NCBI GenBank assembly: GCA_006226775.1
Contig: SBGD01000083.1
Coordinates: forward strand, 21,586 to 85,585
Direction: 5' to 3'
Source: Paracoccaceae bacterium
GTDB taxonomy: Bacteria > Pseudomonadota > Alphaproteobacteria > Rhodobacterales > Rhodobacteraceae
DNA length: 64,000 nt
A model generated the notes under the pieces. It did not search any database and was not told the origin of the DNA. It worked only from the letters and a program-made list of their open reading frames with translations. Position 1 is the stretch's first letter, and every line of letters starts with the position of its first letter. Of this stretch, positions 43,380-50,236 are shown piece after piece. A program made the translations under genes and the position numbers.

Positions 43380-45491
43380 ATGCGGAAAACCGTAAGTGCG
43401 CTGGCCCTGCTGGCCTTTCTGTCGCCCGGAGCGGCCCTCGCGCGCGAGGCCCATGCGCTGCTTATCGGGGCCTCGACCTATCCGGCGCTGGATGAGCGGT
43501 TCTGGCTGAAGGGCCCGGCCAATGACGTCGACCTGGTGGCGAGATACCTCGAGTCGAACCCGGCGATGCCGTTCGACAGCGACAATATCACCGTGCTGGC
43601 CGATGGGCTGGCGGGGCACGAGGCGCCGACGCTGGCGGCGATCCGCGCGGGCTTTGCCGCACTGGCCGAAGAGGTCGAGGCCGGGGATTTCGTCTACCTG
43701 CATTTCTCGGGCCATGGCTCGCAGATGCCGGCCGCCGATCCGGCCTCGGAACTGGACGGGCTCGACGAGATCTTCCTGCCGGTGGATATCGGCCCCTGGG
43801 AGGATACGGTGGGCCAGGTGCAAAACGCGCTGGTCGATGACGAGATCGGCGCGATGATCGACGCCATTCGCGCCAGGGGGGCGGATGTCTGGGTGGTCTT
43901 CGACAGCTGCCATTCCGGCACCGCCACCCGCGCCGCGCCCAGTGACGAGGAGGTGCGGATGCGGCAACTGCCCCCGGGCGCGCTGCGCATTCCCTCGGCG
44001 GCCATGGCCGATGCCGAGAGCCGCTCGCGCGCCCTGCCCGATCCGCGCGCCCGGGCCGAGGCGCCGGTGGTCCCGGCGCCCGAAGGGGGCGAGATGGGCA
44101 AGCTGGTGGCCTTCTTCGCCGCCCAGACCAACGAGACCACGCCGGAGCAGAACATGCCCAGGGGCAAGGCCGACCGGCGCTTGCAGGGGGTCTTTACCTA
44201 TACGCTCTTCGAGACTTTGGCCGAACGCCCCGGCATCACCTATCGGCAGTTGGGCCAGGAGGTGCTGCGCAAATACGGAACCCAGAACCTGGCGCGCACC
44301 ACGCCATTGTTCGAAGGCGACCTGGACCTGCCGGTCTTTGGCCGCACCCCGGGCGACCGCATCCTGCAATGGGGCGCGCGGCGCCAGGGCGATGCGCTGC
44401 GCCTCGATGCCGGGCAGTTGCACGGGTTGAGCGCGGGCACCGACCTTCTGCTGCTGGCCTCGCCCGCCGACAATGACGAGGCGGCGCTGGCGCGTTTCAC
44501 CGTGGACGAGGTCACGACCTTTTCCGCCACGGCCAGCGGCGATTTCGACCTCGACGCCCTGCCCCCCGGCGCGGTGCTGCGCAAGGTGGGCACGGCGATC
44601 GACCTGTCGCTGACCGTCGCCCTGCCTGCGCCGGGCTCGGCCCCGGCGGCGGCCTTCGACGCGGCCCTCGAGGTGATCCGGCAGGAGGGGCTGGCCGGCC
44701 CGCGCATCCGCTTCGTGCCGGCGGGGGATGCCTCGGCGGACCTGCGGCTGGCGGTCTTCGACGACAGCCCGCGGCCCGATGCGCTGTGGTTCATGTCGGC
44801 GGCGGGGATCGTGGATGTGAGCGAGCTTGCCGACATCCCCTCGGTCGCCACCGGCGACAAGACGCCCACCGAACTGGCCGAGGTGGTGGCCGACAACCTG
44901 GTCCGGATGGCGCGGGCGATCAACCTGATGAAGGTGGGCGCGGCGACGGCGGCGGCCAGCGCGGTGCAGGTCGAGGCGCGGATGGTGCGCGGCCGCTTCG
45001 ACGGCGACAGCGGCACGGTGCCGCCAGAGACCCGGGTGGCCTTTTCCGGCGCCAATGTGCCGAAGGTCGTGCCGGACGACACCATCGGGCTGCGGCTGAC
45101 CAATACCACCGACGGGCCGGTGGATTTCAACATCCTCTACGTCGGCTCGGATTTCTCGATCTCCTTCATGGACAATGGCCGGATGCAGCCCGGCGACACG
45201 CTGGACGAGGATTACATCCTGATCACCGATGCCTCCTTCGGGCGCGAGCGGGTGATCGTGGTCTTCTCGCCCGCCGAACCGCAATCGGCGGTCGAGGACC
45301 TGTCGTTCCTGACCCAGGACGCGGTCGAGCGGACCCGCGCGGCAACCGCACGGCAAGGTCTGAAAGGGCTGCTGGACGAGGCCGGCTTCGGCCAGACGAC
45401 CCGCGCCGCGATCTCGCTGTCGCGCAAGAAGAAGACCCCGGACCCGGTGCCGCTTTTCGTGCAGTTCGAGCTGGAGACGGTGCGGCCCTGA
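43380..45491 (+). CDS. Secreted caspase-like protease (peptidase C14) with DUF4384-like tail, paralogue B
   Basis: 703 aa. Signal peptide (MRKTVSALALLAFLSPGAALA), caspase domain with HALLIGASTY, LKGPANDVDL, catalytic His112 in LHFSGHGSQMP, DEIFLPVD and Cys177 in VFDSCHSGTATR. A middle linker is followed by a C-terminal beta domain (GLRLTNTTDGPVDFNILYVGSDFSISFMDNG...) equivalent to that of paralogue A. The shared motifs show that the two arose by duplication. RBS GAGGAG at 6 nt. It stands in the divergent operon opposite the PDZ-protease/two-component genes. Confidence 0.92.
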   Translation: MRKTVSALALLAFLSPGAALAREAHALLIGASTYPALDERFWLKGPANDVDLVARYLESNPAMPFDSDNITVLADGLAGHEAPTLAAIRAGFAALAEEVEAGDFVYLHFSGHGSQMPAADPASELDGLDEIFLPVDIGPWEDTVGQVQNALVDDEIGAMIDAIRARGADVWVVFDSCHSGTATRAAPSDEEVRMRQLPPGALRIPSAAMADAESRSRALPDPRARAEAPVVPAPEGGEMGKLVAFFAAQTNETTPEQNMPRGKADRRLQGVFTYTLFETLAERPGITYRQLGQEVLRKYGTQNLARTTPLFEGDLDLPVFGRTPGDRILQWGARRQGDALRLDAGQLHGLSAGTDLLLLASPADNDEAALARFTVDEVTTFSATASGDFDLDALPPGAVLRKVGTAIDLSLTVALPAPGSAPAAAFDAALEVIRQEGLAGPRIRFVPAGDASADLRLAVFDDSPRPDALWFMSAAGIVDVSELADIPSVATGDKTPTELAEVVADNLVRMARAINLMKVGAATAAASAVQVEARMVRGRFDGDSGTVPPETRVAFSGANVPKVVPDDTIGLRLTNTTDGPVDFNILYVGSDFSISFMDNGRMQPGDTLDEDYILITDASFGRERVIVVFSPAEPQSAVEDLSFLTQDAVERTRAATARQGLKGLLDEAGFGQTTRAAISLSRKKKTPDPVPLFVQFELETVRP

Positions 45492-45583: not shown

Positions 45584-45660
45584 TGCGGAGCGCGCGGTTT
45601 TTTCCCGTGGTGCCCGGAGGGCGGGCCAGGACAGCGCATCTTGAAAGATCGTGCGAAGAA

Positions 45661-45680
45661 GTGTATATCCAAATGCACAT
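45661..45680. promoter_or_regulatory. Candidate autoregulatory operator of the Phd-Doc pair
   Basis: GTGTATATCCAAATGCACAT contains near-inverted arms GTGTAT / ATGCAC (5 of 6 pair) about 20 bp upstream of the antitoxin start. Phd antitoxins repress their own promoters through such dyads; this is inference. Confidence 0.35.
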
Positions 45681-45700
45681 TCCTGAACACGGAGCCGACC

Positions 45701-45952
45701 ATGGTCAGCCGCATCCACACCCGCAACATCTGCACCATGACCGAATTGCGCGAACCGCAGAAGGTCTTCGACCACGCGGGCGGCAAGCCGGTGGCGATCA
45801 TGAAGAACTCGAAATGCGTCGGCTACCTCGTGCCCGAAGAGGCCACGCTGGACGGCGAGCCGCGCTATGCCTCGATGGATGAAGTCATGGCCGCGGTCGA
45901 GGAAACCCGCCAACAGGCTGCGCCGGTGCTCGACTATCTCAAGGACAAATGA
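45701..45952 (+). CDS. Phd/YefM-type antitoxin
   Basis: 83 aa. The N-terminal half (ICTMTELREPQKVFDHAGGKPVAIMKNSKCVGYLVPEE) has the Phd/YefM DNA-binding fold pattern, and the C-terminal tail (MDEVMAAVEETRQQAAPVLDYLKDK) is the region that would neutralise the toxin. GGAG lies 8 nt upstream. The stop overlaps the toxin start by ATGA. Confidence 0.82.
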   Translation: MVSRIHTRNICTMTELREPQKVFDHAGGKPVAIMKNSKCVGYLVPEEATLDGEPRYASMDEVMAAVEETRQQAAPVLDYLKDK

Positions 45953-46323
45953 GTTTCCTGCTGCTGAGTCCCGATCAGGTCGAGGCGCTGCATGACATGG
46001 TGCTGAACCCTGGCGAATTGCCTGGACGCGCGCTGGACAAGTCGCTGGAAGGCGCCCTGTCGCGCGTCGACAACCGGTTGATCTACGGGCTGATCGAGGA
46101 TGTCTTCGACCTGGCCGCGGCCTATGCCACGGCGGTCGCCACCGGCCATTGCTTCAACGATGGCAACAAGCGGACGGCCTATCGCACCATGGTCGTCTGC
46201 CTGAAGCTGAACGGCGTCACCATCACGCATGAGACGCACGACATCGGCAACCGCATCATCCTGCTGGCCCAGGGCCATCTGCCCGAGGCCGATTTCGCCG
46301 ACTGGCTGCGCAGCAGGGCATAG
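45949..46323 (+). CDS. doc: Doc-family (Fic fold) toxin
   Basis: 124 aa, the size of Doc. The Fic motif HCFNDGNKRTAYR (His67-Arg75) matches the Doc form HxFx[ND][AG]NKR. Doc phosphorylates elongation factor Tu and stops translation; Fic relatives AMPylate. It forms an antitoxin-toxin pair with the preceding gene, a typical stabilisation or abortive-infection module. Confidence 0.88.
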   Translation: MSFLLLSPDQVEALHDMVLNPGELPGRALDKSLEGALSRVDNRLIYGLIEDVFDLAAAYATAVATGHCFNDGNKRTAYRTMVVCLKLNGVTITHETHDIGNRIILLAQGHLPEADFADWLRSRA

Positions 46324-47287: not shown

Positions 47288-47330
47288 CCGATCCGTCAAC
47301 GGATCGGTCCTGATCCATCGATGGATCAGG
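47288..47330. repeat. Twin-hairpin repeat, copy 4
   Basis: First hairpin CCGATCCGTCAACGGATCGG; second CTGATCCATCGATGGATCAG with paired C-to-T and G-to-A changes in its stem relative to copies 1-3, extended by one CG pair. In the divergent gap before parE. Confidence 0.92.
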
Positions 47331-47389
47331 ACCCCACGCGGCATCGTCCCGCCCCTCTTCCGGAAAGACAGGCGACCCTCGGCGCCACC

Positions 47390-47431
47390 CCGATCCGTCA
47401 ACGGATCGGCACTGATCCATCGATGGATCAG
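47390..47431. repeat. Twin-hairpin repeat, copy 5
   Basis: Same pair of hairpins as copy 4, about 100 bp further on, so the element is again present as a close pair. Confidence 0.92.
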
Positions 47432-47518
47432 CCCCCGCGCGGCTTATCCACACCCTTTCCGAAGCCCCTGCCCTCTGCCATAATGCCCCGCAATCAAGAG
47501 CAACAAAGAGCAGCGGTC

Positions 47519-49477
47519 ATGGCAGACGATCTCCTCACTCCGGTGAACACTTCCGATTACGACGCCTCGCATATCGAGGTTCTCGAAGGGCTCGAGCCGG
47601 TGCGCAAACGCCCCGGCATGTATATCGGCGGCACCGATGAACGCGCGCTGCACCACCTTGTGGCCGAAGTGCTCGACAACTCGATGGACGAGGCCGTCGC
47701 CGGCCATGCCAACCGCATCGAGGTGGAACTGCACGACGACTACGCCATCACCATCCGCGACAATGGCCGCGGCATCCCGATCGACCCGCACCCGAAATTC
47801 CCCGAAAAGTCGGCGCTCGAGGTCATACTTTGCACGCTGCACGCCGGCGGCAAGTTCTCGGGCGACGCCTACGAGACCTCCGGCGGCTTGCACGGCGTCG
47901 GCGCCTCGGTGGTCAATGCGCTGTCGGACTCCATGGTGGTCCAGGTCGCCCGCAACAAGGAGCTTTACGAGCAGCGCTTTTCCCGCGGCATCCCGCTGGG
48001 CCCGGTCAAGAAGGTCGGCGCGGCGCCCAACCGCCGCGGCACCTCCGTGACCTTCCACGCCGACGAGGAGATCTTTCACAAGCACCGCTTCAAGCCCGCC
48101 CGCCTGCTCAAGATGGTGCGCTCCAAGGCCTATCTCTTCTCTGGCGTCGAGATCCGCTGGAAGTCCGCCATCGACGACGGCGAGACGCCCACCGAGGCCA
48201 CCTTCCACTTCCCCGGCGGGCTGGCCGATTACCTGACCGAGACCCTGGGCACGGCCTCGACCTATGCCGACAAACCCTTCGCCGGGCTGGTGGATTTCCG
48301 CGAGAAATTCAACACCCCGGGCAAGGTCGAATGGGCGATCAACTGGACGCCCGCGCGCGACGGTTTCATCCAGTCCTATTGCAACACCGTGCCCACCCCC
48401 GAGGGCGGCACCCATGAGGCCGGCTTCTGGGCCGCGATCCTCAAGGGCATCCGCGCCTATGGCGAATTGTCCAACAACCGCAAGGCGGCGCAGATCACCC
48501 GCGACGACCTGATCACCGGCGGCTGCGCGCTTGTCTCGTGCTTCATCCGCGAGCCGGAATTCGTCGGCCAGACCAAGGACCGGCTGGCCACCACCGAGGC
48601 CGCGCGCCTGGTGGAAAGCGCCGTGCGCGACCATTTCGACCACTGGCTGACCTCCGACACCAAGAGCGCCGGCGCGATCCTCGATTTCCTCGTGCTGCGC
48701 GCCGAGGAACGGCTGAAACGGCGCCAGGAGAAGGAGACCGCCCGCAAGTCGGCCACCAAGAAGCTGCGCCTGCCCGGCAAGCTGGTGGATTGCTCGGCCA
48801 CCTCGCGCGAGGGCACGGAGCTCTTCATCGTCGAGGGCGATTCGGCCGGCGGATCGGCCAAGATGGCGCGCGATCGCAAGACCCAGGCGCTGCTGCCGCT
48901 GCGCGGCAAGATCCTCAACGTGCTGGGGGCGGCCTCCTCCAAGCTGGGCTCGAACGCCGAGATCTCGGATCTCTCGCAGGCGCTTGGCGTGGGTCTCGGC
49001 TCGCGCTTTGCCATCGACGATCTGCGCTACGAGAAGATCATCATCATGACCGACGCCGATGTCGACGGCGCGCATATCGCGGCGCTCCTGATGACCTTCT
49101 TCTTCACCCAGATGCGGCCGCTGATCGACAATGGCCACCTCTACCTTGCCTGCCCGCCCCTGTTCCGGCTGACCCAGGGGGCGAAGCGGGTCTATTGCCT
49201 CGACGAGGCCGAGCGCGATCTCTGGCTCGAGAAGGGTCTGGGCGGCAAGGGGCAGATCGCGGTGTCGCGCTTCAAGGGTCTGGGCGAGATGGACGCGAAG
49301 GATCTCAAGGACACCACGATGAACCCGGCGACCCGGAAACTGATCCGGGTGTCGATCGACGAGGACGAGCCGGGCGAGACCGGGGATCTCGTGGAGCGGC
49401 TGATGGGCAAGAAGCCGGAGAAACGCTTCGAGTATATCCAGGAGAATGCGAGGTTTGTTGAGGAGTTGGATGTTTAG
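47519..49477 (+). CDS. parE: DNA topoisomerase IV subunit B
   Basis: 652 aa. GHKL ATPase motifs VLDNSMDEAVAG, DNGRGIP and SGGLHGVGASVVNAL, then the TOPRIM motif FIVEGDSAGGSA and DADVDGAHIAALLMTFFF. The length and the QALL-PLRGKILNV / RFKGLGEMDA region favour ParE over GyrB, which would be about 800 aa. With ParC it decatenates replicated chromosomes. The ATG at 47519 was chosen; an upstream in-frame ATG (47483) would add 12 residues. Confidence 0.93.
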   Translation: MADDLLTPVNTSDYDASHIEVLEGLEPVRKRPGMYIGGTDERALHHLVAEVLDNSMDEAVAGHANRIEVELHDDYAITIRDNGRGIPIDPHPKFPEKSALEVILCTLHAGGKFSGDAYETSGGLHGVGASVVNALSDSMVVQVARNKELYEQRFSRGIPLGPVKKVGAAPNRRGTSVTFHADEEIFHKHRFKPARLLKMVRSKAYLFSGVEIRWKSAIDDGETPTEATFHFPGGLADYLTETLGTASTYADKPFAGLVDFREKFNTPGKVEWAINWTPARDGFIQSYCNTVPTPEGGTHEAGFWAAILKGIRAYGELSNNRKAAQITRDDLITGGCALVSCFIREPEFVGQTKDRLATTEAARLVESAVRDHFDHWLTSDTKSAGAILDFLVLRAEERLKRRQEKETARKSATKKLRLPGKLVDCSATSREGTELFIVEGDSAGGSAKMARDRKTQALLPLRGKILNVLGAASSKLGSNAEISDLSQALGVGLGSRFAIDDLRYEKIIIMTDADVDGAHIAALLMTFFFTQMRPLIDNGHLYLACPPLFRLTQGAKRVYCLDEAERDLWLEKGLGGKGQIAVSRFKGLGEMDAKDLKDTTMNPATRKLIRVSIDEDEPGETGDLVERLMGKKPEKRFEYIQENARFVEELDV

Positions 49478-49489
49478 ACTAGAAATGAA

Positions 49490-49996
49490 ATGGAAAGCCT
49501 AACGAGCTTATTCACCTCGATTAGCAACTTCGCACCGCGTGCCGCATGGACCGCCTTTCTGGCATCCGGCGCTCTGATTTTCGCACCAGCTAGTTGGCTA
49601 GAATTATTGGGCGTTCTCTCTTTTCAAGAAGATTTCAAAGGGTTGTTTGGCATTATCTTCTTGATATCCGCGGCAAGCTGTTTCGTGCAGACGACCAATA
49701 TCGCATCTAAAAAATTGAAGAAAAGTTGGGATAAAATTTTATACAGACGAGTTACACTACATTTTTTGAAGCACCTAACTCAGGAAGAAAAGACTTGTTT
49801 GCGCGAGTTTATTGAACGCGATACGTCAACTATTTCACTACCCTACAATCATGGAGTAGCTGGCTCGTTGGAAGCCAAAAATATAATCTTCCGATCTTCC
49901 AACGTGTCTACGCACTTCACGAGTTTTCCATACACTCTGCAACCTGTCGCACAAAACCTCATCAAACAAAACCCACATTTAATTTTGGCTGACTGA
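49490..49996 (+). CDS. SieB-like superinfection-exclusion family protein (AT-rich)
   Basis: 168 aa. Two TM segments (about 18-37 and 50-67, GLFGIIFLISAASCFVQT) are followed by a cytosolic domain whose pattern LTQEEKTCLREFIERDTSTISLP...GVAGSLEAKNIIF and terminal FPYTLQPVAQNLIKQNPHLI matches the superinfection exclusion protein B family as I know it. G+C is near 42 percent in a window of about two thirds G+C, and codon use is unlike its neighbours (AAA, ATA, TTT), so it was probably acquired by transfer. It starts 12 nt after parE; RBS weak. Confidence 0.65.
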   Translation: MESLTSLFTSISNFAPRAAWTAFLASGALIFAPASWLELLGVLSFQEDFKGLFGIIFLISAASCFVQTTNIASKKLKKSWDKILYRRVTLHFLKHLTQEEKTCLREFIERDTSTISLPYNHGVAGSLEAKNIIFRSSNVSTHFTSFPYTLQPVAQNLIKQNPHLILAD

Positions 49997-50028
49997 ACGA
50001 AAACTCAAGGCAGTATATCCCGACGCAA

Positions 50029-50171
50029 GCCGGGCCAGCGCCTGCCCGCGGGATGGCGCTGCAACGGGGATGCTGCGCGCTTTATGCCGGCCACGTCCGG
50101 GCGAGCTCCGAGCGAGGCACCAAGCCCAGCCAAAGCGCCAGCCCGGTGGGGCGGGCAGGCGCTGGCCCGGC
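50029..50171. repeat. Perfect 21-bp inverted repeat around 101 bp
   Basis: The arm GCCGGGCCAGCGCCTGCCCG(C) at 50029 recurs inverted at 50151-50171. A shorter inner pair (TGGCGCT / AGCGCCA) extends the stem. No coding potential inside; MITE-like remnant or structured RNA are both possible. It lies just after the foreign SieB-like gene. Confidence 0.8.
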
Positions 50172-50236
50172 GGCCTTCGGCCTTGTTCCGGGCCGGGATC
50201 AGCCGACGCGACGGCCTGTGTCCGAAAGCGCCCTCC

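Follow-up and report, generated by a model that had tools for sequence, protein, structure and literature searches.

Previous work has described large hotspots at fixed sites between core genes that hold variable defence cargo and are occupied in most genomes (PMC10250203; PMC10121019), and also hotspots that carry no mobile elements and show raised recombination at the flanking core genes (PMC5635113). Among single phage-exclusion genes, sieB of P22 is reported to stop macromolecular synthesis (PMC10883804). The gene described here belongs to the same family and lies directly behind parE in a 64-kb stretch of Rhodobacterales DNA (the window). From our comparisons we conclude that the 3' end of parE, a core gene, is an insertion slot and, across the family, a fixed core-gene address with variable cargo, which goes beyond the single-locus view of an earlier note on this DNA. 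Our search of open-licence papers turned up no account of such a slot at parE in Rhodobacterales. The features of the locus are collected in Table 1.

Table 1. Features of the parE–sieB locus in the window
Feature	Position	Strand	Basis
parE (topoisomerase IV subunit B)	47519..49477	+	translation MADDLLTP...ENARFVEELDV*; homologous 3' ends of parE in related genomes
parE tail GAGGAGTTGGATGTTTAG, cassette-associated motif at the DNA level	49460..49477	+	codon counts across loci
Mini-ORF MFRLEMKWKA*	49470..49502	+	starts in parE tail and overlaps sieB start; sequence and translation
AT-rich cassette (cargo gene and short flanks)	49478..50018	+	limits of the AT-rich segment; L139 and L114, where the site is empty or nearly so
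SieB-family gene	49490..49996	+	PF14163 (E=2.2e-24); hydropathy scan; alignment to relatives
Palindromic dispersed repeat at right edge of cassette	50020..50180	.	arms of 30 nt, 87% complementary

The SieB-family gene of the window

The gene encodes 168 amino acids from an ATG start, 12 nt after the parE stop codon. The earlier note had presented it as a foreign, AT-rich gene next to parE, about 25 points lower in G+C than its surroundings, and the ORF is indeed found there on the plus strand, with a G+C content of 43.2% against 65.4% for parE, 65.2% for the next kb and 68.0% for the whole window, a drop of 22–25 points. No other 507-nt stretch of the window falls below 50% G+C and the sole AT-rich segment in a maximal-scoring scan was the SieB locus; its composition is foreign. 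The two transmembrane segments proposed in the same note correspond to two hydrophobic segments at approximately residues 19–46 and 47–73 in our hydropathy scan.

Assignment to the SieB family, likewise put forward earlier, was borne out by a Pfam match to PF14163 that scored 86.2 bits (curated cut-off 26; E=2.2e-24) and spans profile positions 6–147 of 147. The same profile is matched by the SieB proteins of lambda (1e-29) and Rac (1.5e-31) and by YopH of SPbeta (3e-44); the name SieB is therefore earned by profile, although pairwise (BLAST) similarity of the window protein to lambda SieB was not significant. Judged by its sequence, the window gene genuinely belongs to the family. In its product the membrane segments lie at the N-terminus and precede a C-terminal domain, for which the single-sequence AlphaFold model (pLDDT 41) was too poor to judge; a search of solved structures gave no convincing relative.

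The product is a small SieB-family membrane protein for which an anti-phage function is plausible, probably of the exclusion or abortive-infection type. Upon infection by a sensitive phage, it would act at the inner membrane and stop macromolecular synthesis, as for P22 SieB. That this membrane protein instead serves a role unrelated to phages would fit with the lack of a PADLOC match to the window SieB and with chromosomal SieB homologues being known here from sequence alone; we nevertheless consider such a role rather unlikely, given that the founding members of the family are exclusion proteins and that the genes found in the same slot in other genomes belong largely to defence families.

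The PF14163 family is rare, with 3 of 397 genomes in a sample of the family and 8 of 395 in a sample of the order carrying a member. SieB lay at parE in two of the eight SieB-bearing genomes of the order-wide sample. The only other parE-linked SieB found, that of Roseobacter insulae (L124), is 36% identical to the window SieB. The window SieB was absent from the 60 relatives in which it was sought, including three congeners that have other genes in its place, which shows that it is not an ancestral neighbour of parE. Relatives at 24–36% identity were detected on Burkholderia and Shewanella plasmids, on an Akkermansia phage/plasmid and in SPbeta. Searches of the genome-contig and viral-contig sets with single SieB proteins gave no relatives. 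In the Akkermansia plasmid record (L038, 2846–3355), the annotated hypothetical protein is encoded on one strand and the SieB-like frame on the other, and in another Rhodobacterales genome (L213, 236–1965) a SieB gene is found directly 3' of an integrase-like gene.

A single-gene slot behind parE

The 3' ends of parE were compared between members of the family and 80 named loci of a genome collection, which together gave 92 readable loci; a few genomes were present in both sets, and overlapping loci were counted once where recognised. A locus was called AT-rich when the G+C content of the 400 nt after the parE stop codon was lower than that of parE by more than 10 points. This applied to 64 of the 92 Rhodobacteraceae/Roseobacteraceae loci, compared with 246 of 15420 windows (1.6%) elsewhere in the same loci. 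In the 60 clear cases, the AT-rich segment measured 0.49–1.36 kb (median 0.79 kb) and mostly held one ORF. Nearly every genome carries a different cargo: all-against-all comparison sorted the 64 ORFs of these 60 loci into 56 unrelated clusters.

Pfam matches among the cargo included HEPN_AbiU2 (three), SIR2 (two), RelA/SpoT, PycTM, Abi_C, AbiTii, Abi_alpha and SieB, as well as HNH, RNase_T, DUF2971 and others, with MrcB_N (McrB-N) in L077 and in L089, the latter also with HNH. To these PADLOC added PycC beside PycTM, SIR2, AbiTii and several candidate single-gene defences. Counted among the slot genes alone, most of the Pfam-typed cargo is defence-linked, and many slot genes resemble anti-phage genes. 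AbiU2 exceeded the cut-off in 5 of 101 family genomes searched, and in three of these five (G008, G016 and G071) it lay within about 1.4 kb of parE. Not every slot gene need serve defence, however, since roughly two thirds of the cargo proteins scanned had no Pfam match and a few, such as those of L099/L122, look like lipoproteins. In one locus (L108, 6536–7718) the parE slot holds a Pycsar pair (PycTM and PycC), the effector of which is able to start in the parE tail.

The earlier note had further seen the gene as lying near an inverted-repeat remnant. The inverted repeat is present (arms 50020–50049 and 50151–50180), and the hairpin that it forms folds to −116.7 kcal/mol (z −3.7) and corresponds to no known RNA family. 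It matches approximately 28 places in the window genome, however, and being thus dispersed it is not a remnant of the carrier of the SieB gene. The inspected copies, apart from those at parE and pyrG, lie in ordinary GC context, and the repeat was accordingly rejected as a cassette end or mobile-element remnant. In near-empty loci such as L139 and L114 a hairpin follows parE after 11–36 nt, and the hairpins hence look like the native right neighbour of parE and not like parts of the cassettes.

Decay of a larger element, such as a prophage or Tn7-like transposon with its attachment site in parE, down to one gene at its edge could also be imagined, since the type I-F3 CAST Tn7017 is known to use parE as an attachment site (PMC11406308) and SieB relatives are present in phages and plasmids. 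On this explanation some 60 loci would all need to have decayed to about one gene of 0.5–1.4 kb, and no transposase family was found among the cargo matches. A Tn7-type insertion downstream of parE is, moreover, not expected to alter the parE tail, which is another point against it; we regard decay as very improbable.

Copies of the inverted repeat were also used to locate other slots in the window genome. On contig C90 of this genome (L162, 2366–3118), an AT-rich ORF of 250 amino acids directly follows the pyrG stop codon and is followed by a hairpin of the same type. AT-rich DNA was found after pyrG in 6 of 17 family genomes, and the Leu codon in the pyrG tail was TTG in 6/6 of the AT-rich loci against 2/11 of the others (P=0.002). 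A second slot, weaker than that at parE, lies behind pyrG. A possible further slot was noticed in L097 (3373–4509), where an AT-rich ORF of 303 amino acids lies directly after the stop codon of a glucokinase-like gene, upstream of parE. Upstream of parE in the window itself there are two copies, 91% identical, of a 47-nt doubly palindromic repeat (47288–47334, ATCCGTCAACGGAT; 47390–47436, CTGATCCATCGATGGATCAG). An ORF of 703 amino acids at 43380–45491 has, by eye, a caspase-like start of the secreted metacaspase type, and a pair at approximately 45640–46323 resembles, again by eye, a Phd antitoxin with a Doc/Fic toxin.

The parE tail and the spread of cassettes

Cassette-bearing parE genes share a tail that is conserved at the DNA level, GAGGAGTTGGATGTTTRA, the last codons in AT-rich loci being GAGGAG-YTG-GAT-GTT-TRA. 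Asp is encoded by GAT in 64/64 AT-rich loci against 15/28 other loci, and Val by GTT in 55/64 AT-rich loci; in the rest of the 3' region of these parE genes GAT makes up 24% of the Asp and GTT 5.5% of the Val codons. The combined GATGTT tail was present in 51/60 occupied loci and in 9/31 of the remaining ones (P=2e-7); among these nine, several are weak or decayed cassettes. Third-position identity in parE is raised only over the last five or so codons (0.88 against about 0.6), and the window genome contains the motif at one site only. The motif could partly reflect shared ancestry.

In the window, the tail includes GAGGAG, which resembles a Shine-Dalgarno sequence, and at 49470 an out-of-frame ATG, from which a mini-ORF runs into the start of sieB, making translational coupling to sieB possible. 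The cargo ORF is able to start at the tail ATG in seven other loci, and cargo ORFs, which occur on either strand, are co-directional with parE in 44/60 cases (P=4e-4). Both observations would agree with a tail kept for translation, in which GAGGAG and ATG form the start region of downstream genes and selection for expression, instead of recombination, sets both position and motif. The same tail, however, stands beside minus-strand cargo, so translation is not the whole reason for the motif, and pyrG tails shift without any ATG; we find translation as the explanation quite unlikely. Co-directional cargo would be read from parE transcription.

The left junction of the cassettes is the parE stop codon itself. 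A swap at this junction is seen in two Ascidiaceihabitans genomes (L086 and L087) of about 95% identity, which are colinear up to the parE stop codon, continue with 855 and 612 nt of unrelated sequence, and then regain homology. Their parE genes differ at 52 positions within the final 500 nt, compared with 59 over the preceding 1400 nt (P=2e-6). Identity drops to 0.85–0.94 in these final 500 nt and to 0.82–0.86 in the first 400 nt rightward of the cassette. Such diverged shoulders on both sides are expected where a donor tract has been imported by homologous recombination, although the lower identity in the right flank may simply be due to less constraint. In four other, more divergent pairs no diverged shoulder was seen, and the tract signature is thus clear in one pair only.

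The exact left junction, together with a tail that is conserved at the DNA level against the codon bias of the host and a similar tail shift in pyrG, would also suit site-specific capture, in which cassettes are inserted at an att-like core in the parE 3' end (GAGGAGTTGGATGTTTRA) by a trans-acting recombinase and the incoming unit supplies the gene end. L085, a strain with tandem cassettes, has a displaced second parE 3' end of 99 nt and L139 one of 51 nt. These point in the same direction, but they are truncated at different points and are the only right-end copies of the tail core across the loci. The cassettes contain no integrase, and none was detected nearby in a limited search by homology with one clear integrase query; the tail motif was absent from viral contigs and had no convincing copy in phages or plasmids, where attP-like copies had been sought. 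Integron attC motifs (GTTRRRY/RYYYAAC) were not enriched at the cassette end (5/60 and 5/60 against 6.2 and 5.9 expected) and were discarded as an explanation. No tRNA gene that might serve as an attachment site was found near the window locus. We judge site-specific capture to be rather unlikely. Also unlikely, in our opinion, is the broader proposal that Rhodobacterales possess a cassette system not yet described, with its landing site at the 3' end of parE and, less so, at pyrG and other gene ends. In this system a trans-acting recombinase would capture single defence genes exactly at the stop codon by acting on GAGGAGTTGGATGTTTRA, and recombination would then spread them.

With neither a right-end repeat nor attC motifs, and no integrase in the limited search, swapping driven by recombination is favoured for the spread of cassettes. 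We think it likely that a probable anti-phage protein of the SieB family occupies a single-gene slot at parE, the cargo of which spreads mainly by homologous recombination. New cargo would pass between genomes chiefly through recombination in parE and the right flank, on DNA delivered by gene transfer agents or taken up in some other way, and each event would bring along the parE tail of the donor.

A fixed and easily found site at which most genomes of a major marine family each carry a single gene of their own offers a cheap route to the discovery of phage defences: about two thirds of the scanned cargo has no Pfam match, while most of the typed cargo belongs to defence families. The exactness of the left junction, together with the conservation of the parE tail, raises the testable question of how single genes are captured beside essential genes without a mobile element.

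Comparison with known systems

The SieB proteins of lambda and Rac match PF14163 over the whole model, and the window protein does so over nearly all of it. In contrast to the lambda, P22 and Rac proteins, the window protein is encoded by a lone chromosomal gene with no phage genes around it, and, unlike the lambda and P22 proteins, it contains no internal Met for an Esc-like product, for which a GTG or TTG start could still serve. YopH of SPbeta and the plasmid-borne SieB proteins of Burkholderia glumae and Shewanella baltica are 24–33% identical to the window protein over most of its length; theirs are phage or plasmid genes, however, and that of Shewanella adjoins an Abi gene.

The slot shares with the core defence hotspots, namely cDHS1/2 of P. 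aeruginosa and the defence islands of E. coli, its fixed place between core genes and its variable cargo. It differs from them in holding about one gene (median 0.79 kb) after one stop codon in many genera, where the P. aeruginosa hotspots have medians of 6–26 kb per hotspot within one species, and in its tail motif at the DNA level. Tn7017 likewise uses parE as its attachment site (PMC11406308), but it is a full transposon, whereas no transposase was found in the parE cassettes and the parE tail varies with occupancy. The cassettes resemble integron cassettes in their one-ORF structure, their size of 0.5–1.4 kb, their diverse cargo and the GC-rich hairpin often present at the end; they differ in that attC core motifs are not enriched, the hairpins are dispersed repeats, no integrase was seen and the slot is, as a rule, singly occupied.
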